Source of the DNA: Gammaproteobacteria bacterium | Lineage (GTDB): Bacteria; Pseudomonadota; Gammaproteobacteria; Eutrophobiales; Eutrophobiaceae | Length of the DNA: 17,107 bases | Assembly: GCA_009843675.1 (NCBI GenBank) | Contig: VYCZ01000315.1 | Span: 5,350-22,456, forward strand | Reading direction: 5' to 3' | Shown here: positions 2-11,251 of the stretch, one piece after another | Numbering within the stretch: the stretch's first letter is position 1 | Layout of the letters: each line of letters starts with the position of its first letter | Notes under the pieces: model-generated | The model's database searches: none | What the model was told of the DNA's origin: nothing | The model's input: the letters and a program-made list of their open reading frames with translations, nothing else | Program-made: the position numbers and the translations under genes

Positions 2-145
2 ATCTGGACCGTGCTGCTGGATCGCTTCGATTTTCACCTGGACACCGGGTTTCCCGCCCCGAACTACGGCAGCTGGGTAACGGGTCCCAGAACGCCTTGC
101 CGGGTAAGTTACCGGCGCCGTTCGCAAACCAGCGTTTTCCGGTGA
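2..145 (+). CDS. C-terminal end of a cytochrome P450, CYP51-like (sterol 14-alpha-demethylase), 5' truncated
   Basis: The window opens inside this gene; 47 codons remain before TGA at 143-145. The peptide begins IWTVLLDRFDFHL, then has a PAPNY stretch, a GPRTPC segment and a basic V-S-Y-R-R-R end. CYP51 proteins end this way: the helix after the haem-binding Cys runs into an (I/F)xxLLRxFxFEL strand, then PxY, VGPxxPC and a (V/I)RYRRR tail. The haem Cys loop itself lies upstream of the window. CYP51 removes the 14-alpha-methyl group of lanosterol-type sterols with O2 and electrons from a redox partner. The assignment rests on a short tail, but the four sterol-pathway domains encoded next support it strongly. 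The stop is 10 bases before the TTG start of the next gene, consistent with one transcript. Another P450 family is possible. Confidence 0.72.
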   Translation: MWTVLLDRFDFHLDTGFPAPNYGSWVTGPRTPCRVSYRRRSQTSVFR

Positions 146-155
146 GTGCACTGTT

Positions 156-3100
156 TTGGACCGTTACGACGTAGCCGTTGTCGGCGCGGGACCTGTAGGC
201 AGTGTGTGCGCACTCGCCTTCGCGCAGAGAGGCGCCCGGGTGGCGCTGCTGGAAGCCAATCCCAAGGCTGCCAGGCGGCTGGCGGGCGAATGGCTGCATC
301 CGCCTGCCGTACGCATGTTGCAGTCTGTGGGCATAACGCTCGATACGCAGCCCCACAGCATCACGGGCAAAGGGTTTGCGGTGTTCCCGGAAGACGGTTC
401 GGAACCGATAATGCTGCCTTACCCGGACGGCTCTCACGGCCTGGCATGTGAGCATGCGGAACTCGTCTCCTGCCTGCATGAAGCGGTTGAGAACGAGCCG
501 GGCATCGACTTTCTTTTGCATGCGCGGGTACGCGAGGTGGGCGACGGCCGGCTCAGTTACAGCCGGAATGGCGCCGATCAAACCCTGGACGCGACGCGCA
601 TCGTCGGCGCCGACGGCCGCGTCTCGATCGTGCGCCAATCCCTGGGCTTATCGACAAAACCAATGCCCTGCTCGCGTATGGTAGGGGTCATGCTGGAAGG
701 CGTGGACCTGCCCCTGAAGGGTTACGGCCACGTGGTGCTGGGAGCGCCGGGCCCGCTCCTGGTATACCACGTGGGAGAGCATTCCGTCCGGATAGTCGCC
801 GATGTCCCGCTGGACCAGTGGACGCCCAGGGACAGGCTCGGGTTGCTGTCGGGATCCTATGCCGGTTTGTTGCCGGAGACACTCAGGGCGGCGTTTGTCG
901 AGGCGTTGCAGGCGGGGAAATTCAACGCCGCGGCCAATGAACTGAGGCAGCGCGTCAGCTACGGGAGCCCGCAGCGGGTGCTTATCGGCGACGCGGCCGG
1001 GCACTATCACCCCCTGACCGCGGTGGGGATGACGCTGGGTTTCGGCGATGCGCTGGCGCTGGCCGGGAGCAGGGACTTTCACGACTTCAAGACCCGGCGT
1101 ATTCATGTGACCCGCGCCCCGGAGTTCCTGGCCATGGGGATCTACGAGGTATTTGCCGACCACCGGGCTGAAATGGTGGCGCTGAGACACGCGATGTACC
1201 GGGGTTGGAGGATGAAGCCCGCGATACGCAAGGGCACCATACGTTTACTCGGCTGTGAAGACACATCGACGACCCGCCTGGGTTTCGCATTCACCGCGGT
1301 GGTGATCCGGGCAGTCGCCGGTGCGGTCCCGCGGTCCTGGGATAAGGTTGCCTGGCGCCGGGTGCGCGATATCGTTCACGCGATCGCCGTTCGTCTCTGG
1401 TGGCTCGTGAATGGCGTTCAGAAACTGTACTGGGCGAGAAGGGCGGGCGTAGAAAAAGATAACCGGGTCCGGGATGCAATGTCCCGCGCGTTCCTGATCT
1501 CCATGGCGCCGAACGAGGGAAACTCCCGGCATGCGCAACCGAAGAAGGATGATCTGCCCGATGCCGGTCCGGCATTGCAGCGCGCAAGCGCACACCTGTT
1601 AAGCCTCCAGGGTGAGGATGGCGCCTGGGAGGGCGAGATGGTCTGGTGTCCCATGCTCACGGCGCAATACGTGCTGCTGCACCACATTATCGGCCATCCG
1701 CTCGACCCCGGCCGGCGCCGGCGCGTGCTGCGCTCCTTTGAATGCACCCGCCTCGAAGGAGGCCTGTGGAGCCTGCACGAATACCCGCCGCCCAACCTGT
1801 TTGTTACCACCCTGGTTTACGTCGCGGCGAGACTGCTCGGTGTAGAACGGGATGATCCGTTAATCGAACCCGCCCGGCGCTTTTTGCAGGAAGAAGGAGT
1901 GCTCGGCATCCCGAGCTGGGGAAAGTTCTGGCTGGCGCTGCTTAATCTTTACGACTGGCGCGGGGTAAACCCCATACTGCCGGAACTGTGGAGTCTGCCG
2001 CGCTGGGCAGCATTGCATCCCTCGAACTGGTACTGCCATACCCGGCTTATCTACCTGGCGATGGCCGCGGTTTACCCGCACCGGTTCCAGGCGCCGGTCA
2101 CACCCCTGATCGCATCGCTGCGGGAGGAACTGTTCCCCGAAGGGTTTGACAAGGCCGATTTTTCCAGGGGCCGGAACCGGTTGCGGGAGGCCGACCTCTA
2201 CGCGCGTCCCGGTGTATGGCTGCGGGCCGGGTACGGGTTTGCGCGGTTGTACGAGCGGTTCCACAACAAGCGCCTGCGCGCCCGCAGCATGGAAGCGCTG
2301 ATCCGACAGATAAGATGGGAACTGCAAGCCACCGGCCACACGAACATCTCCCCGGTCAGCGGTTTCCTCAATATCCTGGCCTTGTGGCTGCGTGACCCGG
2401 ACGACGATGACTGCCGGCGGGCGCTGGACCAACTGGACGGATGGATCTGGGAAGACGAGGAGCGCGGCGCGCGGGTCACCGGCGCCCGGAGCAGTTCGTG
2501 GGACACGGGCTTTTCCCTGCAGGCGCTGGCAACGGTTCCCGGCCTGGACGGGGTTGGAGACGCCCTCCGGAAGGGAGCCGGCTTCCTGCGCGGGCAGCAA
2601 GTCGGCGCCGGCTTTGAAGGGTTTCGCGAGGCTTACCGCACCGACCCCGAAGGCGGCTGGTGTTTCCCCGGGGCATGGCATGGCTGGCCGGTGAGCGGCT
2701 GCACTGCGGAAGCGGTACTGGGTATCCTTGCCGCCGGCCGCGAAGCTATGAACGAGCAGGCGCTCGGCGATGCGGTCCGGTTCATGTTGCGTACCCGGAA
2801 CCGTGACGGCGGTTTCGGCAGCTACGAGGCGCGCCGCAGCGCGTTTGACCTCGAATGGCTGAACCCGGCCGAAATGTTCGGCGACTCGATGACGGAGCGT
2901 TCCTATGTCGAGTGCACCGCGTCCTGCCTCGCGGCGCTCGCGGCCTGCCGGGAGCGCTTCCCGCAGGTCACGGACCAGGCATCGGCGGACGCCATCGCGC
3001 GGGGCGGCGCCTGGCTGCGCCGCACCCAGGCAAGTGACGGGTCGTGGCGCGGCGTATGGGGCGTGCAGTTTATCTATGGCACCTTGTTCGGTATCAGGGG

Positions 3101-3584
3101 CCTGCGCGCGGCGGCGGCCCTTCCCGGTGATCCGGCAGTGCGTGCGGCCTGCCGGTGGCTGCTGGACCGCCAGCGGCAGGACGGGGGCTGGGGCGAGCAT
3201 TACAGCGGTTGCCTGACCGGGCGCTACGTGGAACACCAGGAAAGCCAGGTTATCCAGACCGCCTGGGCACTGATTGCCTTGCTCGAGGCGGGCGATTCCA
3301 ACTGGAGCGCGATTACCCGCGGCGCCCGGTTCTTGATGGACGCCCAGGAAGGCGGCGGCTCATGGCCCAGGCAGGACATGGCCGGGGTATTTTTCCGCAC
3401 CGCGCTGCTGGACTACGTCCTGTACCGCCAGTATTTTCCCCTGCACGCGCTGGGCCTGTACGAACAGCGGCGCCGGGCCAGGTCGGGGGCCGATGCTCCA
3501 CTCAACGAGCAACAGCGCCGGGCTCGGCCCGGTGCAGACACCCCACTCAATGAATCATGCAATTCTGATATAGTGATCAAATGA
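156..3584 (+). CDS. Fused squalene epoxidase-like FAD monooxygenase and oxidosqualene cyclase-type triterpene cyclase
   Basis: One open frame of 1142 residues with two enzyme domains. Residues 1 to about 450 resemble squalene monooxygenase: the FAD Rossmann motif GxGxxG (G10, G12, G15), GADG at 151-154, and GD at 278-279 followed by HPLTAVGMTL, close to the HPLTGGGMT of squalene epoxidases. A hydrophobic helical stretch (about 390-430) may associate with membrane. From about residue 470 the protein is an oxidosqualene cyclase: several QW repeats (QGEDGAW, QASDGSW, RQDGGWGE), NWYCHTR, WDTGF, LNPAEMFGD, YVECTAS, IYGTLFGIRGL and QTAWALIALLEAGD. The catalytic motif reads V-S-G-C-T-A-E with Gly848 where the DCTAE proton-donor Asp is expected. 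Expected reaction: squalene to 2,3-oxidosqualene to a tetracyclic sterol precursor, but the missing Asp makes cyclase activity uncertain. TTG at 156 is chosen because the FAD motif starts at once and no later in-frame start keeps it. The C-terminus is a 15-residue tandem repeat. The stop overlaps the next start (ATGA). Confidence 0.88.
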   Translation: MDRYDVAVVGAGPVGSVCALAFAQRGARVALLEANPKAARRLAGEWLHPPAVRMLQSVGITLDTQPHSITGKGFAVFPEDGSEPIMLPYPDGSHGLACEHAELVSCLHEAVENEPGIDFLLHARVREVGDGRLSYSRNGADQTLDATRIVGADGRVSIVRQSLGLSTKPMPCSRMVGVMLEGVDLPLKGYGHVVLGAPGPLLVYHVGEHSVRIVADVPLDQWTPRDRLGLLSGSYAGLLPETLRAAFVEALQAGKFNAAANELRQRVSYGSPQRVLIGDAAGHYHPLTAVGMTLGFGDALALAGSRDFHDFKTRRIHVTRAPEFLAMGIYEVFADHRAEMVALRHAMYRGWRMKPAIRKGTIRLLGCEDTSTTRLGFAFTAVVIRAVAGAVPRSWDKVAWRRVRDIVHAIAVRLWWLVNGVQKLYWARRAGVEKDNRVRDAMSRAFLISMAPNEGNSRHAQPKKDDLPDAGPALQRASAHLLSLQGEDGAWEGEMVWCPMLTAQYVLLHHIIGHPLDPGRRRRVLRSFECTRLEGGLWSLHEYPPPNLFVTTLVYVAARLLGVERDDPLIEPARRFLQEEGVLGIPSWGKFWLALLNLYDWRGVNPILPELWSLPRWAALHPSNWYCHTRLIYLAMAAVYPHRFQAPVTPLIASLREELFPEGFDKADFSRGRNRLREADLYARPGVWLRAGYGFARLYERFHNKRLRARSMEALIRQIRWELQATGHTNISPVSGFLNILALWLRDPDDDDCRRALDQLDGWIWEDEERGARVTGARSSSWDTGFSLQALATVPGLDGVGDALRKGAGFLRGQQVGAGFEGFREAYRTDPEGGWCFPGAWHGWPVSGCTAEAVLGILAAGREAMNEQALGDAVRFMLRTRNRDGGFGSYEARRSAFDLEWLNPAEMFGDSMTERSYVECTASCLAALAACRERFPQVTDQASADAIARGGAWLRRTQASDGSWRGVWGVQFIYGTLFGIRGLRAAAALPGDPAVRAACRWLLDRQRQDGGWGEHYSGCLTGRYVEHQESQVIQTAWALIALLEAGDSNWSAITRGARFLMDAQEGGGSWPRQDMAGVFFRTALLDYVLYRQYFPLHALGLYEQRRRARSGADAPLNEQQRRARPGADTPLNESCNSDIVIK
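3462..3551 (+). repeat. Two imperfect 45-bp tandem repeats at the 3' end of the epoxidase-cyclase gene
   Basis: Bases 3462-3506 and 3507-3551 encode the 15-residue units EQRRRARSGADAPLN and EQQRRARPGADTPLN (residues 1103-1132). They lie beyond the last conserved cyclase helix and are rich in Arg, Ala and Pro. The copies keep the frame but differ at several bases, so the duplication is not very recent. The tail is probably disordered and outside the catalytic fold. Confidence 0.85.
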
Positions 3585-4606
3585 CAGATACACTCACCAA
3601 TACACCGGGTCCCCGTTCCCTTGCGGATCTCGCCCCCGACCAGGTGAAACCCGTGGTCGATGGATACACCGCCCTGCACGATGGCGCCACCACGGAGGAC
3701 AGAAAGGAGCGTTACCAGGAACTGGTCAATCACTACTATGACCTGGTGACCGATTTCTACGAGTTCGGCTGGGGCGCGTCCTTTCACTTTGCGCCCCGGC
3801 GGCGGGACGAGAGCTTCAAGGCGTCCCTGCTCAGGCACCAGTATTTTCTTGGCGACCGGCTTTCCCTGAAACCGGGGATGCAGGTGCTCGACGTGGGATG
3901 CGGGGTAGGGGGCCCGATGGGCAACCTGGCGCGCCGTTACGGGGCCGGCTTTACCGGCATCAACAATAACGCCTACCAGGTTGAGCGGGCGAAAGTGCAC
4001 ACGCGGGATGTCCGGCCGTTATGCCGTTTCATACACGGCGATTACATGCATGTACCCGAAAACGGCGGCAGCTACGATGCCGCCTTCGCCATCGAGTCCC
4101 TGCCCCACGCACCGGACAAGACTGCGGTGTTCCGGGAGATCCTGCGCGTGCTGCGTCCGGGGGCCTGTTTTGCGGGCTACGAATGGTGTCTTACCGATGA
4201 TTTCGATCCCGGCAACCCGGAGCACCAACGCATCAAGAAAACTATCATGGCGGGGAACGGACTGCCGGATATCGCCTCCACGCCGGAGATTGGCGCCGCC
4301 GCGCGCGATGCCGGATTCGAACTCCTGGAAGCCCGCGACCTGGCGCCGGAATCGGACCCGGAGACGCCCTGGTACCGCGCCCTGCAGGGTCGCGATCTCA
4401 GTCTCATGAGTATTCCGCGTACGCCGGCCGGCCGCGCCCTGACGAACTTGACGTTAAGGGTTGCGGAGAAATTGCGGGTGGTCCCGGAGGGCACCAGGGC
4501 GGTCAGCACGCTGCTGAACAACGCGGCGGACGCGCTGGTCGAGGGCGGCGTACACGGTATTTTTACCCCCATGTTTTTCTTCCTGGTTCGTAAACCGGGA
4601 GGGTGA
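3581..4606 (+). CDS. Sterol C-24 methyltransferase (ERG6/SMT-like)
   Basis: 341 residues, close to the usual length of eukaryotic sterol methyltransferases. Sterol-specific signatures run in order: YYDLVTDFYEFGWGASFHFA (about 52-71, the aromatic sterol-binding region), the SAM motif LDVGCGVGGP (103-112), GINNNAYQ (about 126-133), GDYM (153-156), AIESLPHAP (about 170-178), YEW in the YEWCLT stretch, and NPEHQRIKK with GLPDI. The last 70 or so residues match the sterol methyltransferase C-terminal domain (TPWY, GTRAVSTLL, ADALVEGG, IFTPMFFFLVRKP). The enzyme transfers methyl from SAM to C-24 of a delta24 sterol side chain; which sterol and how many methylations cannot be read from sequence. ATG at 3581 overlaps the preceding TGA by 4 bases, so translation is probably coupled. 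The downstream gene starts immediately after its stop. Confidence 0.9.
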   Translation: MTDTLTNTPGPRSLADLAPDQVKPVVDGYTALHDGATTEDRKERYQELVNHYYDLVTDFYEFGWGASFHFAPRRRDESFKASLLRHQYFLGDRLSLKPGMQVLDVGCGVGGPMGNLARRYGAGFTGINNNAYQVERAKVHTRDVRPLCRFIHGDYMHVPENGGSYDAAFAIESLPHAPDKTAVFREILRVLRPGACFAGYEWCLTDDFDPGNPEHQRIKKTIMAGNGLPDIASTPEIGAAARDAGFELLEARDLAPESDPETPWYRALQGRDLSLMSIPRTPAGRALTNLTLRVAEKLRVVPEGTRAVSTLLNNAADALVEGGVHGIFTPMFFFLVRKPGG

Positions 4607-5164
4607 ATGAAGTACGTTTTTGACCCCGACATCCTGCGCGAAGTCGCCCATTCCCACCTCGACCTGCCGCTGGAGGAAATGCTGCCTGCAATCGCCCGGG
4701 ACCTTGCCGAACGCTATCCCGGCCGGATTGACACCAGGCCCGACTGGTTCTTCTCCAACGCCGGCGGCGTCATGGGACAACTCACCATCCTGTATGCTTC
4801 GCTGCGGGAGTACGTCATCTTTTTCGGCACCCCCATCGGCGGAACGGGACACACCGGCCGCTATCATTTTGTCGAAGATTACGCGTACATCCTGGATGGG
4901 GAGATGTGGTACTACGGCGAAGGCGATGTTCAGAAGACGGAATACCGCAAGGGTGACGTCATGCATTTGCAGAAAGGCAATGCAAAAGGTTTCAGGATGG
5001 AAGACCGCGCCTGGATACTCGAATACGTGCGCGGCCCCGTTCCCACCATGCTGCCGTTCGGGGTCGCGGATACCCTGTTCAGCACCCTTGACTTCAGGAC
5101 CCTGTTCCGCACGTTCTCGATCTATACCCGGCACGTGCTGCGATCCGTCAGAAAACCCCGGTAG
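4607..5164 (+). CDS. ERG2 / sigma-1 receptor family protein (putative sterol C-8 isomerase)
   Basis: 185 residues matching the ERG2/sigma-1 receptor family from end to end: YVFDPDIL at the start, NAGGVMGQLTILYASL (about 51-66), EYVIFFGT then GHTGRY (about 81-86), a cupin-like middle with ILDGEMWYY and YRKGDVMHL, AWILEYVRG (135-143), and VPTMLPFGVADTLFSTLDF (145-163). Glu139 aligns with sigma-1 Glu172, the ligand-contacting acid, and E90/D91 lie near the second acid. The N-terminal membrane helix of eukaryotic members is absent: the protein begins directly at the cupin-fold domain, though the C-terminal membrane-lying helices are kept. Fungal ERG2 moves the sterol C8 double bond to C7, which fits the preceding methyltransferase, epoxidase-cyclase and CYP51 genes. 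The ATG directly follows the upstream TGA, with GGGAGG a few bases before it. A ligand-binding rather than catalytic role cannot be excluded. Confidence 0.9.
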   Translation: MKYVFDPDILREVAHSHLDLPLEEMLPAIARDLAERYPGRIDTRPDWFFSNAGGVMGQLTILYASLREYVIFFGTPIGGTGHTGRYHFVEDYAYILDGEMWYYGEGDVQKTEYRKGDVMHLQKGNAKGFRMEDRAWILEYVRGPVPTMLPFGVADTLFSTLDFRTLFRTFSIYTRHVLRSVRKPR

Positions 5165-5232: not shown

Positions 5233-6261
5233 ATGAGTTTCCCAGGGTATGCGCGGCAGACCGAGGCATCCAACCTGATGGGCGGGTTCTGGATTGCCGA
5301 GGCCTACCACTGGTTCCGCCAGTACGGGCTGGAGGCCCGCGGCTGTTTTACCACCCTGGCGGCGGTCAGCGTGGCGACGGAAAGAATACCCATAGGGCTC
5401 GGCATTACTTCGCCTTACATGCGCCATCCCACCATCCAGGCGTCCGAGGCGGCGGGCATCGACGAGTTGTCCGGCGGCCGCTTCATCATGGGTATCGGCG
5501 TGGGCAAGGTGGGCATCGAGTACCTGGAATACGACATCGAGAAGCTGAGGCCGGTCGGGGTCCACCATGAATCCATGGAGATCATGCGCAAGGTGTTTGC
5601 CGGCGAGGCCTACGAGTACAAGGGCAAATATTTTGAATCCTCCATGCCGGCATACGACCGGGCCGGGGATGGACTGCGCACGGAAATCCCCATTTACGTG
5701 GGAGCGACCGGGCCGTTCATGCAAAAACTCAGCGGCCGCGAGAGCGACGGCATGCTGCTGGCAGGGCTGACTTCGCCCCCCTTCGTCAAATACGCCCGGG
5801 AGAACATGGAAGCCGGGGCTGAAAAGGCGGGCCGCACCCTGCCGCCTGATTTTCCGGTGGGTGGCGTGATCCTGTGTTCCTGCTCCCGGGACGGCGACAA
5901 GGCGCGGGATGCCACCCGCCCGTACACGGGAACCTACGTGGTGAACAAGATCAGGAATATCAAGAACGATGTAATCCTGGCCGGTTCAGGACTGCCTGAC
6001 TCGGCCTGGGAACCGTTCCGCCAGGCCATCGCGGACGGCACCCAGGACAACGTCACCCAGTACGTGACGGATGAGATGATGCGTAAATTCACCGTCATAT
6101 CCGGCACCCCGGAGGACTGCCTCGAGATCACCCAGGAACTGGTGGATTCGGGGTTGAACCTGCCCCTGCTGGAGGTGGTCGGCGCCAGCGAGGCCGATAA
6201 CCTGGAGACCATCCGCCTGATGGGCGAGGAGGTCGTGCCCAACCTGAGGCCGGCGGCATGA
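5233..6261 (+). CDS. LLM-class (luciferase-like) flavin- or F420-dependent oxidoreductase
   Basis: 342 residues of the bacterial luciferase-like TIM-barrel family. Visible features are FWIAEAYHW (about 19-27, the VWVAE strand of the family), a TTLAAVSVATERIPIGLGITSPYMRHP run (from about residue 40), ASEAAGIDELSGGRFIMGIGVGK (the strongly conserved DELSGGRF core), PIYVGATGP and the SDGMLLAG segment. These fit the F420-dependent methylene-tetrahydromethanopterin reductase-like branch, and an FO synthase gene 2.3 kb downstream on the same strand favours F420 over FMN. The substrate is unknown. The start ATG at 5233 leaves the first beta strand of the barrel shorter than usual; an in-frame stop at 5170 and no other start codon between rule out a longer version. 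A possible AAGGGAA ribosome site lies at 5214-5220. It lies 68 bases after the sterol genes. Confidence 0.85.
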   Translation: MSFPGYARQTEASNLMGGFWIAEAYHWFRQYGLEARGCFTTLAAVSVATERIPIGLGITSPYMRHPTIQASEAAGIDELSGGRFIMGIGVGKVGIEYLEYDIEKLRPVGVHHESMEIMRKVFAGEAYEYKGKYFESSMPAYDRAGDGLRTEIPIYVGATGPFMQKLSGRESDGMLLAGLTSPPFVKYARENMEAGAEKAGRTLPPDFPVGGVILCSCSRDGDKARDATRPYTGTYVVNKIRNIKNDVILAGSGLPDSAWEPFRQAIADGTQDNVTQYVTDEMMRKFTVISGTPEDCLEITQELVDSGLNLPLLEVVGASEADNLETIRLMGEEVVPNLRPAA

Positions 6262-7219: not shown

Positions 7220-7302
7220 GGGGTCAGGGTAGAAACCCGGGGTCAGAGTAAGAAATTCGCCAGAATTTTTACTCTGACCCCAAAATTCCTTACTCTTACC
7301 CC
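7220..7302. repeat. Nested REP-like palindrome
   Basis: GGGGTCAGAGTA (7239-7250) pairs perfectly with TACTCTGACCCC (7270-7281). Outside it GGGGTCAGGGTA (7220-7231) pairs 10 of 12 with TACTCTTACCCC (7291-7302). The result is a hairpin within a hairpin filling most of the gap between the FAH and M20 genes. The same heading sequence recurs at 13408-13517. Its position right after a stop codon suggests it can act as a transcript end or RNA stabiliser. Confidence 0.85.
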
Positions 7303-7334: not shown

Positions 7335-8609
7335 ATGAACGCTGAAGTAAACAAGGACCTGCTGGCCAGGGCCATCGACCACATCGACAGGCAGCGCTTG
7401 GTAAAACTGGTCATGGACCTGGTGGACATCCCCAGCCCCACCGGTGAAGAGGAAGGCGTCGCACGCGCCCTGCATGAGATTTTCGGTTCGGCTGGTTTTG
7501 ACGCCACCCTGCAGCCCATCGGCGATGACCGTTACAACGCCATCGGCCGCCTGCAAGGGGAGGGCGGCGGCAAGTCCCTGATGTTCAACGGCCATCTGGA
7601 TACCTCGTTCGGCCCGGAACAGGCCCACCGCGGCATCGGCTACCAGTGCAAGGCCACGCTGGTCGATAACGAATGGATCTACGGCATGGGCTCGTTCAAC
7701 ATGAAGAGCGCCATGGGCACGTATATCGTCGCCACGGAGGCGATCCGCAAGGCCGGCATCAAGCTGGCCGGCGACGTGGTGATCGCGGGCGTAGCCGGCG
7801 AGATAGAGAAAGCGCCGGTGAACGATTTCGAGGGCAGGCAGTACCAGGGCTACGGTGTCGGCACCAAGTTTGCGATTACCCACGGCGCGGTGGCCGATTT
7901 CTGCATCCTGGGCGAACCCACCAACATGATGCTGATCCCGCGCCACTGCGGCACCACCTGGCTCAAGATCACCGTGCCGGGCCGCCTGATCCATACCGCC
8001 TGGTCCAAGGTGGAGACCAACGCCATCAACAAGTCCCGCAAGGTCCTGGACGCCATCCACGACTGGATCCCCGGTTACTGCGAACGCAACAAGGCAGGCG
8101 ATTTCCAGCCCCGGGTGAACGTCTCGGCCATCGAAGGAGGCTGGCCCTGGCGCGGCGCCAGGACCCCGGACAACTGCTGCATCTACATGGACGTCAGGAC
8201 CATACCCGGCGTGATGCCGGTCCAGGTCTATAACGAAGTGCGCGAGGTCATTGCGGACGCTGCGAGCGCCAACGAGGAACTGGCCGGCGTCAAGGTGGAG
8301 ATCTTCCTGTCCGCGCCCGGCACCTCCATACCGGACGATCACGAACTGGTGCAGACCATCATCCAGGCGCATACCGACCAGTTGGGAGAAGCGCCGAAGA
8401 TGGGCATGGAAACCTGGTACAGCGACGCCGCGCACATGAACCGCTACGGCATACCCACGGTGAATTACGGCTCCGCGGGCCGCATCCGCACCACCGGCGG
8501 CGGCGGTTTCTCCACCTCGCAGGGCGAAGCGGTCTATATCGGCGACATGCTGGACATCATCAGGGTTTATATCCAGTCCATCCTGACAATCTGCGGCGTT
8601 GCGGAGTGA
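7335..8609 (+). CDS. M20-family metallohydrolase (ArgE/DapE/carboxypeptidase type) with atypical metal ligands
   Basis: 424 residues with the two-domain M20 layout. Seen: DIPSPTGEE (31-39), the HxD metal motif FNGHLDTS (H87, D89), WIYGMGSFNMKSAMG (about 114-128), AGEIEKAP (E156, E158), CILGEPT (E194), the dimerisation-domain segment GRLIHTAWSKVETNAINK, and SDAAHMNRYGIPTVNYG near the end. In typical members the middle motif is GxGxxDMKGG, whose Asp bridges the two zinc ions; here it is N122. The usual C-terminal metal His (in GxxxAH) is replaced in the GGGGFSTSQGEA stretch. The enzyme may bind one metal or work on an unusual amide or amidine bond. Substrate unknown. ATG at 7335 has AAGG at 7323-7326. 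Its TGA overlaps a GTG that could start the FO synthase gene. Confidence 0.82.
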   Translation: MNAEVNKDLLARAIDHIDRQRLVKLVMDLVDIPSPTGEEEGVARALHEIFGSAGFDATLQPIGDDRYNAIGRLQGEGGGKSLMFNGHLDTSFGPEQAHRGIGYQCKATLVDNEWIYGMGSFNMKSAMGTYIVATEAIRKAGIKLAGDVVIAGVAGEIEKAPVNDFEGRQYQGYGVGTKFAITHGAVADFCILGEPTNMMLIPRHCGTTWLKITVPGRLIHTAWSKVETNAINKSRKVLDAIHDWIPGYCERNKAGDFQPRVNVSAIEGGWPWRGARTPDNCCIYMDVRTIPGVMPVQVYNEVREVIADAASANEELAGVKVEIFLSAPGTSIPDDHELVQTIIQAHTDQLGEAPKMGMETWYSDAAHMNRYGIPTVNYGSAGRIRTTGGGGFSTSQGEAVYIGDMLDIIRVYIQSILTICGVAE

Positions 8610-11251
8610 GTACACATTCGTCATTCCCGCGAAAGCGGGAATCCAGTGAAACAAAGGGTCGCCCTGCGGGCGACACAGTATTCCACTGGATGCCGGGTCA
8701 AGCCCGGCATGACGAAATGGTAATTGAAGAACACCTGTCGCGATCCGCTTGCGATCTCGGGGAACTCATGCAGCAGGCGGCAGAGTTGCGCGACCAGGGT
8801 CACGGCCGCGTGGTTTCATATTCCCCCAAGGTCTTTATCCCCCTGACGAAACTATGCCGGGACGTGTGCCATTATTGCACCTTCGCGCAACCGCCGCGGC
8901 CGGGGCAACAGGCTTATATGAGTATCGATGAGGTCCTGGCCATAGCACGGGCCGGCGCGGAGGCGGGCTGCCATGAGGCCCTGTTCACCCTGGGAGACAA
9001 GCCTGAAGCGCGCTACAAGGCTGCCAGGGACGAATTGGCGGCGCTCGGCCATGCCTCGACCCTGTCCTACCTGCGGGAGGCGGCGCAGGCGGTGCTGGAC
9101 GAGACCGGCCTGCTGCCGCACATGAACCCGGGAGTGATGACCCAGTCCGAACTGGAGGACCTGCGCCCGGTATCGGTATCCCAGGGGCTGATGCTGGAGA
9201 GCAGCTCGGCGCGCTTGTGCGAGAAAGGCGGCCCCCATTACGGATCACCGGACAAACGGCCGCAGGTGCGCCTGGACAGCATCGCCGCGGCAGGGGCGGC
9301 GCGGGCGCCGTTTACCTCCGGCATCCTCATCGGCATAGGCGAGACCCGCCGCGAGCGCCTGGAAGCCTTGCTGGCGTTGAGGGACCTGCATGAGGCGCAT
9401 GGGCACATCCAGGAAATCATCGTCCAGAACTTCCGCCGCAAGCCCGGCACGAAGATGCACGATGCCCTGGAACCGGCACTGGAGGAACTGCTTTGGACCG
9501 TCGCCATGGCGCGCATCATCTTCGGCCCGCACATGAACATTCAGGCGCCCCCCAACCTGACCCTCGATGAGTCATTGCCCGACCTCATCCACGCGGGGAT
9601 CAACGACTGGGGCGGCGTCTCACCCGTGACCCCGGACCACGTCAACCCGGAGGCGGCCTGGCCGCACCTGGACCGGCTGCGCACCGCAACGGAGGCGGCC
9701 GGCAAGACGCTTGCGCCGAGGCTGCCGGTATACCCGGCATATATCCGTGAAAGGGATACCTGGATCGACCCGGCCCTGCATACCCGCGTGCTGCGGAAGA
9801 TCGATGCCGCCGGCTTCGCCCGCCCGGACGACTGGGCGCCGGGGAGCAGTGGACAGAAGCCGGAATACACAAGACAGGGGACGGACCCCCGCTTACAACA
9901 TGCGGGGGCATGCTTAAATCCGTCCCCGCACCCGCGAGGGGAGGGGACAGGGAACGGAAGGCAGACGGCGAGCGAAAAACCACAGTGGGCAATGCACAAT
10001 GGCCTGGGTACTGTTATCAATAAAGCCGTGGCCGGCACACGCCTTACCGAAGCTGAAATCATAACGCTGTTCAATGCCCGCGGCGCCGATGAAGACGCCG
10101 TGCTACAGGCCGCCGACAACCTGCGCCAGACCGTGAACGGCGATACGGTCAGCTACGTGGTCAACCGGAACATCAACTACACCAATATCTGCTATTTCGG
10201 CTGCGGTTTCTGCGCCTTTTCCAAGGGGCGCGTGGCCGAGAACCTGCGCGAGCGCGGCTATGACCTGCCCCTGGAAGAGATACAGGCGCGGGTATCCGAG
10301 GCCTGGGAGAGAGGCGCGACCGAGGTCTGCCTGCAAGGCGGTATCCACCCGGACTATACCGGAGCGACCTACCTGGCCATCTTACGGGCAGTCAAGGAGG
10401 CGCAGCCGGACATGCACGTGCATGCGTTCTCGCCGCTGGAGATCCGGCAGGGGGCAGAGACCCTGGGCCTGCCGCTCAGGGACTATCTCGGTGAGTTGAA
10501 ACAGGCCGGCCTGGGGACCCTGCCCGGCACCGCGGCGGAGATCCTCGATGATGAGATCAGGCAGATCATCTGCCCGGACAAGCTGAACACGGCCGAGTGG
10601 CTGGAGGTCATGAGCACCGCCCACTCCCTGGGCCTCAACTCCACGTCCACCATCATGTTCGGCCACGTGGACGGACCGCTGAACTGGGCGCGCCACCTGC
10701 TGCGTATCCGCGATTTGCAGGAGGAAACGGGCGGTTTCACCGAGTTCGTGCCGCTGCCCTTCGTGCACATGGAAGCGCCCATGTACCGCAAGGGCCGGGC
10801 GCGCAAAGGCCCCACCTTCCGCGAGGCGATCCTGATGCACGCCGTCGCCAGGCTGGTATTGCATCCCCATATCACCAACATACAAGCCTCCTGGGTGAAA
10901 CTGGGCATGGACGGTCTCCGGGCCTGCCTGGACGCGGGCGTAAACGACGTGGGCGGCACCCTGATGAACGAAAGCATCAGCCGCGCAGCCGGCGCCTCCC
11001 ACGGCCAGGAATTCACCGCGGCGGGCATGCGCGACCTGATCACGGCCGCCGGAAAGATACCGCAACAGCGCACCACCCGTTACGAGCCTGTGACGGAGAG
11101 AGCGGGTGACACGCTCCCCCATTCGTCATTCCCGTGCAAACGGGAATCCAGTAAAATGATGGGTCGCCCTGCGGGTGACACAGTATTCCACTGGATGCCG
11201 GGTCAAGCCCGGCATGACGAACAAGAGGGTCAGTCCCGGCATGACAAATAG
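8606..11251 (+). CDS. fbiC: FO synthase, fused CofG-CofH (FbiC type), coenzyme F420 biosynthesis
   Basis: A two-domain radical SAM protein that builds FO (7,8-didemethyl-8-hydroxy-5-deazariboflavin), the F420 chromophore, from tyrosine and the flavin precursor 5-amino-6-ribitylaminouracil. Numbering from GTG 8606: the CofG half has the 4Fe-4S motif C84-x3-C88-x2-C91 in LCRDVCHYCTFAQPPR, and the CofH half has C529-x3-C533-x2-C536 in NICYFGCGFCAFSKGR. CofG is about residues 40-420, CofH about 470-830. The true start is debatable: GTG 8606 overlaps the upstream TGA and gives a leader encoded by a 101-bp repeat, while ATG 8717 (residue 38) directly precedes conserved sequence and is the more natural start. 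The last 50 residues after TTRYEPV are also repeat-encoded, and the linker carries a 51-bp palindrome. The conserved halves look intact. The core is about the size of mycobacterial FbiC. Confidence 0.92.
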   Translation: MSTHSSFPRKRESSETKGRPAGDTVFHWMPGQARHDEMVIEEHLSRSACDLGELMQQAAELRDQGHGRVVSYSPKVFIPLTKLCRDVCHYCTFAQPPRPGQQAYMSIDEVLAIARAGAEAGCHEALFTLGDKPEARYKAARDELAALGHASTLSYLREAAQAVLDETGLLPHMNPGVMTQSELEDLRPVSVSQGLMLESSSARLCEKGGPHYGSPDKRPQVRLDSIAAAGAARAPFTSGILIGIGETRRERLEALLALRDLHEAHGHIQEIIVQNFRRKPGTKMHDALEPALEELLWTVAMARIIFGPHMNIQAPPNLTLDESLPDLIHAGINDWGGVSPVTPDHVNPEAAWPHLDRLRTATEAAGKTLAPRLPVYPAYIRERDTWIDPALHTRVLRKIDAAGFARPDDWAPGSSGQKPEYTRQGTDPRLQHAGACLNPSPHPRGEGTGNGRQTASEKPQWAMHNGLGTVINKAVAGTRLTEAEIITLFNARGADEDAVLQAADNLRQTVNGDTVSYVVNRNINYTNICYFGCGFCAFSKGRVAENLRERGYDLPLEEIQARVSEAWERGATEVCLQGGIHPDYTGATYLAILRAVKEAQPDMHVHAFSPLEIRQGAETLGLPLRDYLGELKQAGLGTLPGTAAEILDDEIRQIICPDKLNTAEWLEVMSTAHSLGLNSTSTIMFGHVDGPLNWARHLLRIRDLQEETGGFTEFVPLPFVHMEAPMYRKGRARKGPTFREAILMHAVARLVLHPHITNIQASWVKLGMDGLRACLDAGVNDVGGTLMNESISRAAGASHGQEFTAAGMRDLITAAGKIPQQRTTRYEPVTERAGDTLPHSSFPCKRESSKMMGRPAGDTVFHWMPGQARHDEQEGQSRHDK
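8616..8716. repeat. 101-bp dispersed repeat, copy A (dRS3-like ends)
   Basis: The unit starts with ATTCGTCATTCCCGCG, contains the inverted repeat ATTCCCGC...GCGGGAAT, and ends GGATGCCGGGTCAAGCCCGGCATGACGAA, itself palindromic (GCCGGG...CCCGGC). Copy B at 11121-11221 has the same length and about 8 differences. When translated the family gives the HSSFPRKRESS...HWMPGQARHDE peptide seen as spurious tails in many bacterial proteins. Here it separates the M20 stop from the conserved start of the FO synthase. Confidence 0.92.
9877..9927. repeat. 51-bp palindromic element inside the CofG-CofH linker
   Basis: GGGGACGGA (9877-9885) pairs with TCCGTCCCC (9919-9927), and inside it CCCCCGC (9886-9892) pairs with GCGGGGG (9902-9908). 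Being 51 bp, it adds exactly 17 codons and no stop. It lies in the non-conserved linker (residues about 424-441) and resembles the GGGG-headed palindromes elsewhere in the window. Confidence 0.8.
11121..11248. repeat. 101-bp dispersed repeat, copy B, plus a truncated third end
   Basis: Bases 11121-11221 match copy A at 8616-8716 over 101 positions with about 8 substitutions, in the same orientation and the same reading frame of the FO synthase. Bases 11227-11248 (GGGTCAGTCCCGGCATGACAAA) repeat the right-hand end once more. The FO synthase stop codon follows at 11249-11251, so the present C-terminus is made by the repeats. Confidence 0.9.

Follow-up and report, generated by a model that had tools for sequence, protein, structure and literature searches.

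A seven-gene msb/CSG-type sterol operon in an uncultured gammaproteobacterium, a probable symbiont of marine sponges

The window analysed here is a stretch of 17,107 nucleotides, positions 5350-22456 of contig VYCZ01000315.1 (C12) in the gammaproteobacterial genome G000 (assembly GCA_009843675.1). It opens with the 3' part of a run of seven co-directional genes, sdmB-sdmA-erg24-cyp51-[epoxidase-cyclase fusion]-SMT-ERG2, whose first part lies immediately upstream on the same contig. We are fairly sure that this is a sterol operon of the type published as msb and as steroid clusters (CSGs), and that its bearer is an uncultured gammaproteobacterium that most likely lives as a symbiont in a marine sponge. 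The sponge host is presumed, and a sponge origin is likewise presumed for the jk18, p16, SB and RHO3 bins. The identities of the genes, their order and their conservation are observed directly.

Gene content and order of the operon

Four closely packed plus-strand reading frames fill positions 2-5164. A preliminary description of this DNA had reported four adjacent same-strand genes with overlapping or near-touching ends, and all of its coordinates and junctions hold. The C-terminal tail of CYP51 (sterol 14-alpha-demethylase; 2-145, 47 codons plus stop) ends with a stop at 143-145 and is followed by the TTG start of the fusion at 156. The ATG of the sterol 24-C-methyltransferase (SMT) at 3581 overlaps the fusion stop (ATGA), and the ATG of ERG2 at 4607 stands immediately 3' of the SMT stop. 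The family assignments also hold, by profiles for the fusion, SMT and ERG2, and through the upstream contig and congener sequences for CYP51.

A single open reading frame (156-3584, 1142 amino acids, MsbE-type) joins a squalene epoxidase to an oxidosqualene cyclase. The epoxidase, or FAD monooxygenase, part (156-1520, with the cut set at residue 455) has a GxGxxG start and the motif GDAAGHYHPLTAVGMT, matches PF08491 squalene epoxidase (86 bits) and PF01494 (81 bits), and resembles the squalene monooxygenase 6c6n in the PDB (7e-23). The lanosterol-type cyclase part (residues 473-1104, 1572-3467) scores 504 bits with TIGR01787, above the cut-off of 322.7, and 720 bits with TIGR03463 (osq_cycl), below the cut-off of 851; it also matches PF13249 (171 bits), PF13243 (177 bits) and, in the PDB, human lanosterol synthase 1w6k (5e-132). 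A protein search with the cyclase part gave 1702 relatives among 7992 scored candidates, of which 120 were listed. Among the matches listed, 116 of 120 are at least 1080 amino acids long, and within those 116 the window's epoxidase pattern GDA..HP..GMT is present in 102 and unmatched in 14. Homologues of the fusion are located on contigs of up to 7.06 Mb.

The SMT (3581-4606, 341 amino acids) has a YEFGWG motif, an S-adenosylmethionine methyltransferase domain (PF08241, 65 bits) and the C-terminal domain Sterol_MT_C (PF08498, 78 bits), and is predicted to act as a C-24 methylase of sterols. The ERG2-type sterol C8-C7 isomerase (4607-5164, 185 amino acids) scores 211 bits with PF04622 (cut-off 21), matches the sigma-1 receptor in the PDB (3.5e-33), and is without the N-terminal extension of its fungal relative P0112. 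The Glu of its GE(M/Q)W stretch is common to the three eukaryotic relatives examined and absent in two aligned sigma-1 sequences, and may be relevant to isomerase activity. ERG2 homologues number 165 at E<=0.001. Of these, 120 were listed, mostly nameless; the named ones among them include Gammaproteobacteria, Bradyrhizobium, Terriglobia, a cyanobacterium and three from eukaryotes. A quick tree with 57 rows places the window inside a 20-row bacterial ERG2 clade (Shimodaira-Hasegawa-like approximate likelihood-ratio test, SH-aLRT, 96); the only eukaryotes included, three sequences, group with myxobacteria in a separate clade (99). ERG2 homologues also occur in Mycobacterium (L047-L052, 46-48% identity), with no other operon gene found within the fetched loci.

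The upstream stretch, C12:1-5349, is covered by locus L002, which overlaps the window, and its genes lie on the same strand as the window operon. An SdmB-like gene (C12:811-1974) is followed by an SdmA-like Rieske gene (C12:1971-3071), an ERG4/ERG24-family reductase (C12:3058-4161; PF01222, 256 bits; top PDB match the Delta(14)-sterol reductase 4quv, 4e-68) and the larger part of CYP51 (C12:4107-5339; best PDB matches CYP51s, 5e-83). The rest of the P450, a C-14 reductase and C-4 demethylation genes, all named in the preliminary description as things to look for, are thus found directly upstream. For the first two proteins the top NCBIfam matches are SdmB (NF052578, 291 bits) and SdmA (NF052579, 402 bits), below the equivalog cut-offs of 600 bits, and by sequence we call them SdmA/B-like only. 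ERG24-type reductase, CYP51 and oxidosqualene cyclase are adjacent in that order, preceded by the SdmB (DFR-like) and Rieske genes, which is the arrangement of the msb/CSG type.

CYP51 is cut by a gap of 10 N (C12:5340-5349) immediately 5' of the window. By itself the 47-codon P450 tail matched no Pfam or NCBIfam model. It is assigned to CYP51 because the upstream contig encodes the rest of the enzyme and because complete 490-amino-acid CYP51s of two congeners have C-termini that match the tail at 100% (L008) and 98% (L006) identity. The congener G003 has 95 nt at the place of the gap. In both G003 and G001 the heme-Cys loop FGGGKHRCMG lies at this position and the complete CYP51 continues into a window-type tail; the position of the heme-binding Cys loop thus falls inside the gap of G000.

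The gene set resembles eukaryotic pathways, and a scaffold gap stands right at the window's edge, so eukaryotic contamination or a chimeric contig was considered. We reject it as next to impossible, and agree with the preliminary description that the operon is bacterial, because G003 carries it whole and G001 carries it minus SMT, both with complete CYP51.

Comparison with published systems

Published systems are compared here through the available parts of each paper's text. Mohanty 2020 describes the msb cluster of a gammaproteobacterial symbiont of Melophlus sarasinorum (PMC7074536; record MT026193), with msbA (NAD(P) oxidoreductase), msbB (Rieske), msbC (sterol reductase), msbD (14-demethylase), msbE (bifunctional squalene epoxidase/cyclase with a lanosterol-type Val) and msbF (SMT). 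It shares gene order and fused enzyme with the present operon, a likeness drawn from the published description rather than from sequence. The genes at both ends of msb are described as unlike sterol genes (PMC7074536), whereas in the window ERG2 follows SMT. The congener G006 carries the msb gene set in msb order.

To our knowledge, Methylococcus capsulatus has neither an SMT nor an epoxidase-cyclase fusion; its sterol pathway likewise uses SdmAB-type C-4 demethylation and CYP51. The latter is taken from Lee 2026 (PMC13277303), which mentions a C-14 reductase and a C-8 isomerase in Methylotuvimicrobium. Kelly 2022 (PMC9531527) describes CSGs in Ircinia symbionts of 10 phyla and proposes horizontal gene transfer. 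These clusters likewise have an ERG24-CYP51-LSS core with SMT nearby and, in several, ERG2, and the DFR and hypothetical genes 5' of the core would fit SdmB and SdmA. They differ in that SMT or FDFT1 is usually on the opposite strand, whereas the window has SMT and ERG2 at the 3' end, reading in the direction of the other genes. The available text does not term the Ircinia LSS a fusion, although its 3765-position alignment fits one. Brown 2023 (PMC10070321) finds SMTs of bacteria within sterol clusters, in many cases next to further sterol genes, sdmA/sdmB included, demonstrates their activity in vitro, and mentions 'fused SMO/OSC homologs' in its Methods; the likeness of these clusters to the window SMT is again by description, not sequence. 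Bacterial cholesterol is treated in PMC10202945.

The preliminary description had presented the sterol gene set as unusual for bacteria. The operon is real, but operons of this type are already in print (2020, 2022, 2023). Neither the epoxidase-cyclase fusion, published in 2020, nor a cluster with SMT plus ERG2 can be claimed as new. What is new here concerns the catalytic residue of the cyclase, the variation of SMT and ERG2 within one genus, the prediction of Δ7 sterols, and the similarity of the fusion across phyla. A literature search of titles and abstract openings in one collection returned nothing that treats the fused enzyme's enzymology or this locus.

Proposed pathway and the altered cyclase

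Each enzymatic step, the order of the steps and the product are proposed from the gene families. Squalene would be supplied via squalene-synthase-family genes elsewhere in the genome, and one bifunctional protein would epoxidise and cyclise it to a lanosterol-type product. CYP51 would take off the C-14 methyl, the ERG24-type reductase would saturate Δ14, SdmA and SdmB would strip one or both C-4 methyls, SMT would alkylate C-24 and ERG2 would move Δ8 to Δ7. This retains, as a prediction, the 14-demethylated, 24-alkylated and isomerised product foreseen in the preliminary description. The pathway would end in Δ7 sterols alkylated at C-24, perhaps with 4-methylation retained. PF04116 (FA_hydroxylase) is, we assume, the family of the ERG3 C-5 desaturase and of ERG25. 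None of the four operon-bearing genomes (G000, G001, G003 and G006) yielded a PF04116 gene, so the C-5 desaturase that had also been suggested for a search did not turn up, and Δ7 rather than Δ5 or Δ5,7 sterols are therefore predicted. C-24-alkyl steranes serve as fossils of eukaryotes, even of sponges, and bacterial operons for 24-alkylated, isomerised sterols weaken that use.

The failure to find an ERG3/ERG25-family gene would also suit an operon that mainly feeds a sterol core to glycosylated, sarasinoside-like triterpenoid saponins rather than making free membrane sterols, as Mohanty 2020 proposes for the same gene order in the Melophlus gammaproteobacterium (PMC7074536, available text). 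We consider this use unlikely here. No glycosyltransferase is among the annotated neighbour genes, although no genome-wide search for glycosyltransferases was made, and SMT with ERG2 would rather suit membrane-type sterols.

Several observations weigh against the sterol-operon reading. Asp455 of human lanosterol synthase (VSDCTAE motif), which we take to be the proton donor, aligns with Gly848 of the window (codon GGC, 2697-2699), so the catalytic Asp of the DCTAE motif is absent. This codon did not figure in the preliminary description. Asp is present in all 120 of the matches listed (of 1702), 119 by pattern and one by eye (VSDCTGEA), and, apart from the window and the L002 copy that overlaps it, in every pattern-matching cyclase of the scanned loci; G001 and G003 have GAC (Asp) at this place. 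In an alignment of 120 fused sequences (the window, three congeners and 116 of the matches listed), the window departs at 2 of the 259 columns that are invariant in the other 119, by D848G and G987A (codon 3114-3116). Of 12 control sequences, ten have no such departure and two (P0121, P0122) have one. The available text of PMC6678101 gives indirect support for the role of Asp455 and DCTAE. The sub-cut-off scores of SdmA and SdmB also mean that full C-4 demethylation is not assured. Finally, G000 is a fragmented bin (2.63 Mb, 466 contigs, 77% complete), and absences in G000 alone are weak evidence.

Gly at the proton-donor position therefore means either a consensus error in this metagenome-assembled genome (MAG) or a strain with a recently disabled cyclase. 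The window protein belongs to the cyclase family by descent, the activity of this copy is doubtful judging from its residues, and because the catalytic Asp is missing, de novo sterol synthesis by this exact strain is uncertain. If the cyclase is dead, SMT, ERG2, the reductase and SdmAB might modify host-derived sterols instead. Apart from the fusion, the search of G000 turned up just one cyclase gene, that of a squalene-hopene cyclase, and SMT and ERG2 appear constrained relative to G003, with ratios of nonsynonymous to synonymous substitution rates (dN/dS) of 0.06 and 0.13. However, constraint over the whole cyclase part is not relaxed (dN/dS 0.16 versus G003) and there is no frameshift, the two congeners retain Asp, one deviating base may simply reflect an error in the consensus of a fragmented MAG, and a second cyclase copy could be missed in a 77% complete genome. 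We think this remodelling role improbable, and still favour a sterol-making operon of the msb/CSG type; the cyclase variant needs checking before this MAG counts as a sterol maker.

A related and more speculative idea, to which we give little credence, is that the genus forms a natural allelic series of sterol-structure control: the full operon in G003, SMT cleanly missing from the G001 operon, a distant SMT without ERG2 in G006, and a Gly cyclase in G000. The window lineage would then have just lost cyclase catalysis, with SMT, ERG2 and the enzymes that tailor the sterol nucleus kept under selection, and the symbiont would be shifting from making sterols to remodelling those of its host.

Two further observations concern the cyclases. 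The C-terminus of the window cyclase (about 3460-3560) carries one more 15-amino-acid QRRRAR.GAD.PLNE unit than that of G003. The squalene-hopene cyclase is encoded at G000:C437 (L084; TIGR01507, 754 bits versus 431), and hopanoids and sterols may coexist in G000.

Distribution within the genus and across phyla

The genus set comprises seven genomes. G003 has all seven operon genes at 96-99% amino-acid identity, with a CYP51 tail of 100%, in the same order. G001 keeps that order at 83-98% piece by piece, without SMT between cyclase and ERG2; at the junction the cyclase end leads into a window-SMT-like start fused to ERG2 codon 2. The ERG2 homologue P0001 (44 member sequences) starts MTEKKYVF, close to this G001 (L006) junction. 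Two other SMT-family genes on G001:C39 are 46% and 41% identical to the window SMT; they stand (L094, 9746-19966) near an HlyD-type gene and a protein in which a GPP34 and a P450 domain are combined. In G006, sdmB-sdmA-erg24-cyp51-fusion (68-83% identity) is followed by an SMT of only 48% identity, and PF04622 (ERG2) has no match. Such closely matched clusters, differing in SMT and ERG2, make each gene's effect on the product testable.

PF01222 and the fusion are present in 4 of the 7 genomes, as is Sterol_MT_C, and the squalene-synthase family in all 7. PF04622 was found in 3 of the 58 genomes searched (G000 included), all 3 in the window's genus, seven genomes of which were searched. PF04116 occurs in 2 of the 7, neither an operon bearer. 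A second cyclase gene of about 700 amino acids is present in 5 of the 7; those other than G000's were judged only by their 78-93% identity to its squalene-hopene cyclase. Six operon genes (CYP51 was left out because of the gap) have dN/dS of 0.06-0.34 against G003. Synonymous divergence (dS) of the operon from G003 is 0.03-0.10, as against 0.12-0.22 in three genes downstream, a possible sign that the operon block has recombined.

A pattern scan with the ERG2 alignment over genome_contigs (one genome per species, 84,980 species) gave 54 loci. The survey is keyed on ERG2, with clusters lacking ERG2 outside its scope. Ten of the 54 hold SdmB, SdmA, ERG24, CYP51, epoxidase and cyclase together, at no less than 57% identity; loci were bounded by 10-kb flanks or contig ends, and the other 44 are not proven to lack the six functions. 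The ten are labelled Gammaproteobacteria (three, two being G003 and G001), Rhodothermales (two), Alphaproteobacteria, Opitutales, Bryobacterales, Acidimicrobiia and an unclassified bacterium; two cyanobacterial loci have the same six functions at 39-63%. SMT and ERG2 lie downstream on the same strand in G000 and G003, convergent with the other genes in, for example, L012, L022 and L024-L026, and upstream on the same strand in L023.

The fusion is 71% identical to the window's in Opitutales and in the unclassified bacterium, 70% in Bryobacterales, 68 and 69% in Rhodothermales, 67-68% in the gammaproteobacterium L012, 66% in Alphaproteobacteria, 64% in Acidimicrobiia and 47% in Rivularia. The same-genus copy in G006, at 71%, is no closer than the Opitutales, Bryobacterales and Rhodothermales copies. 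In the hopene-cyclase-like gene, G006 and G000 share 85% identity. RpoB of G000 is 46.6% identical in Opitutales, 51.5% in Bryobacterales (1294 amino acids aligned), 46.0% in Rhodothermales and 67.0% in L012; the RpoB search gave no hit in G006 or the Acidimicrobiia genome. Across three phyla the fusion (68-71%) is thus more similar than the housekeeping RpoB (46-52%), and this, with Kelly 2022, makes the case for transfer. Tree topology does not prove it, the concatenated tree being nearly star-like. In approximately unbiased tests, neither a single clade of the four same-genus rows (p 0.459) nor one uniting all five gammaproteobacterial rows (p 0.252) is rejected. A quick single-gene tree of the oxidosqualene cyclase puts the window genus beside Rhodothermia (SH-aLRT 95), a placement unrepeated in the concatenated tree.

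For this stretch an Rfam search gave no match and a tRNA scan found none. After ERG2 lies an F420-type luciferase-like (Mer-like) oxidoreductase (5233-6261) and, 3.4 kb further on, a fused CofGH (F420 precursor synthase; 8606-11251). Both are conserved in G001 and G003 and were not found in the other cassette-bearing loci, and they were set aside as neighbours rather than parts of the sterol pathway. A 102-nt repeat (92% identical) stands at both ends of the CofGH reading frame (8615-8716 and 11120-11221, translated PRKRESS...QARHDE), and the true CofGH start is probably later than that of the reading frame. A second repeat, of 58 nt, occurs at 7238 and 13474.
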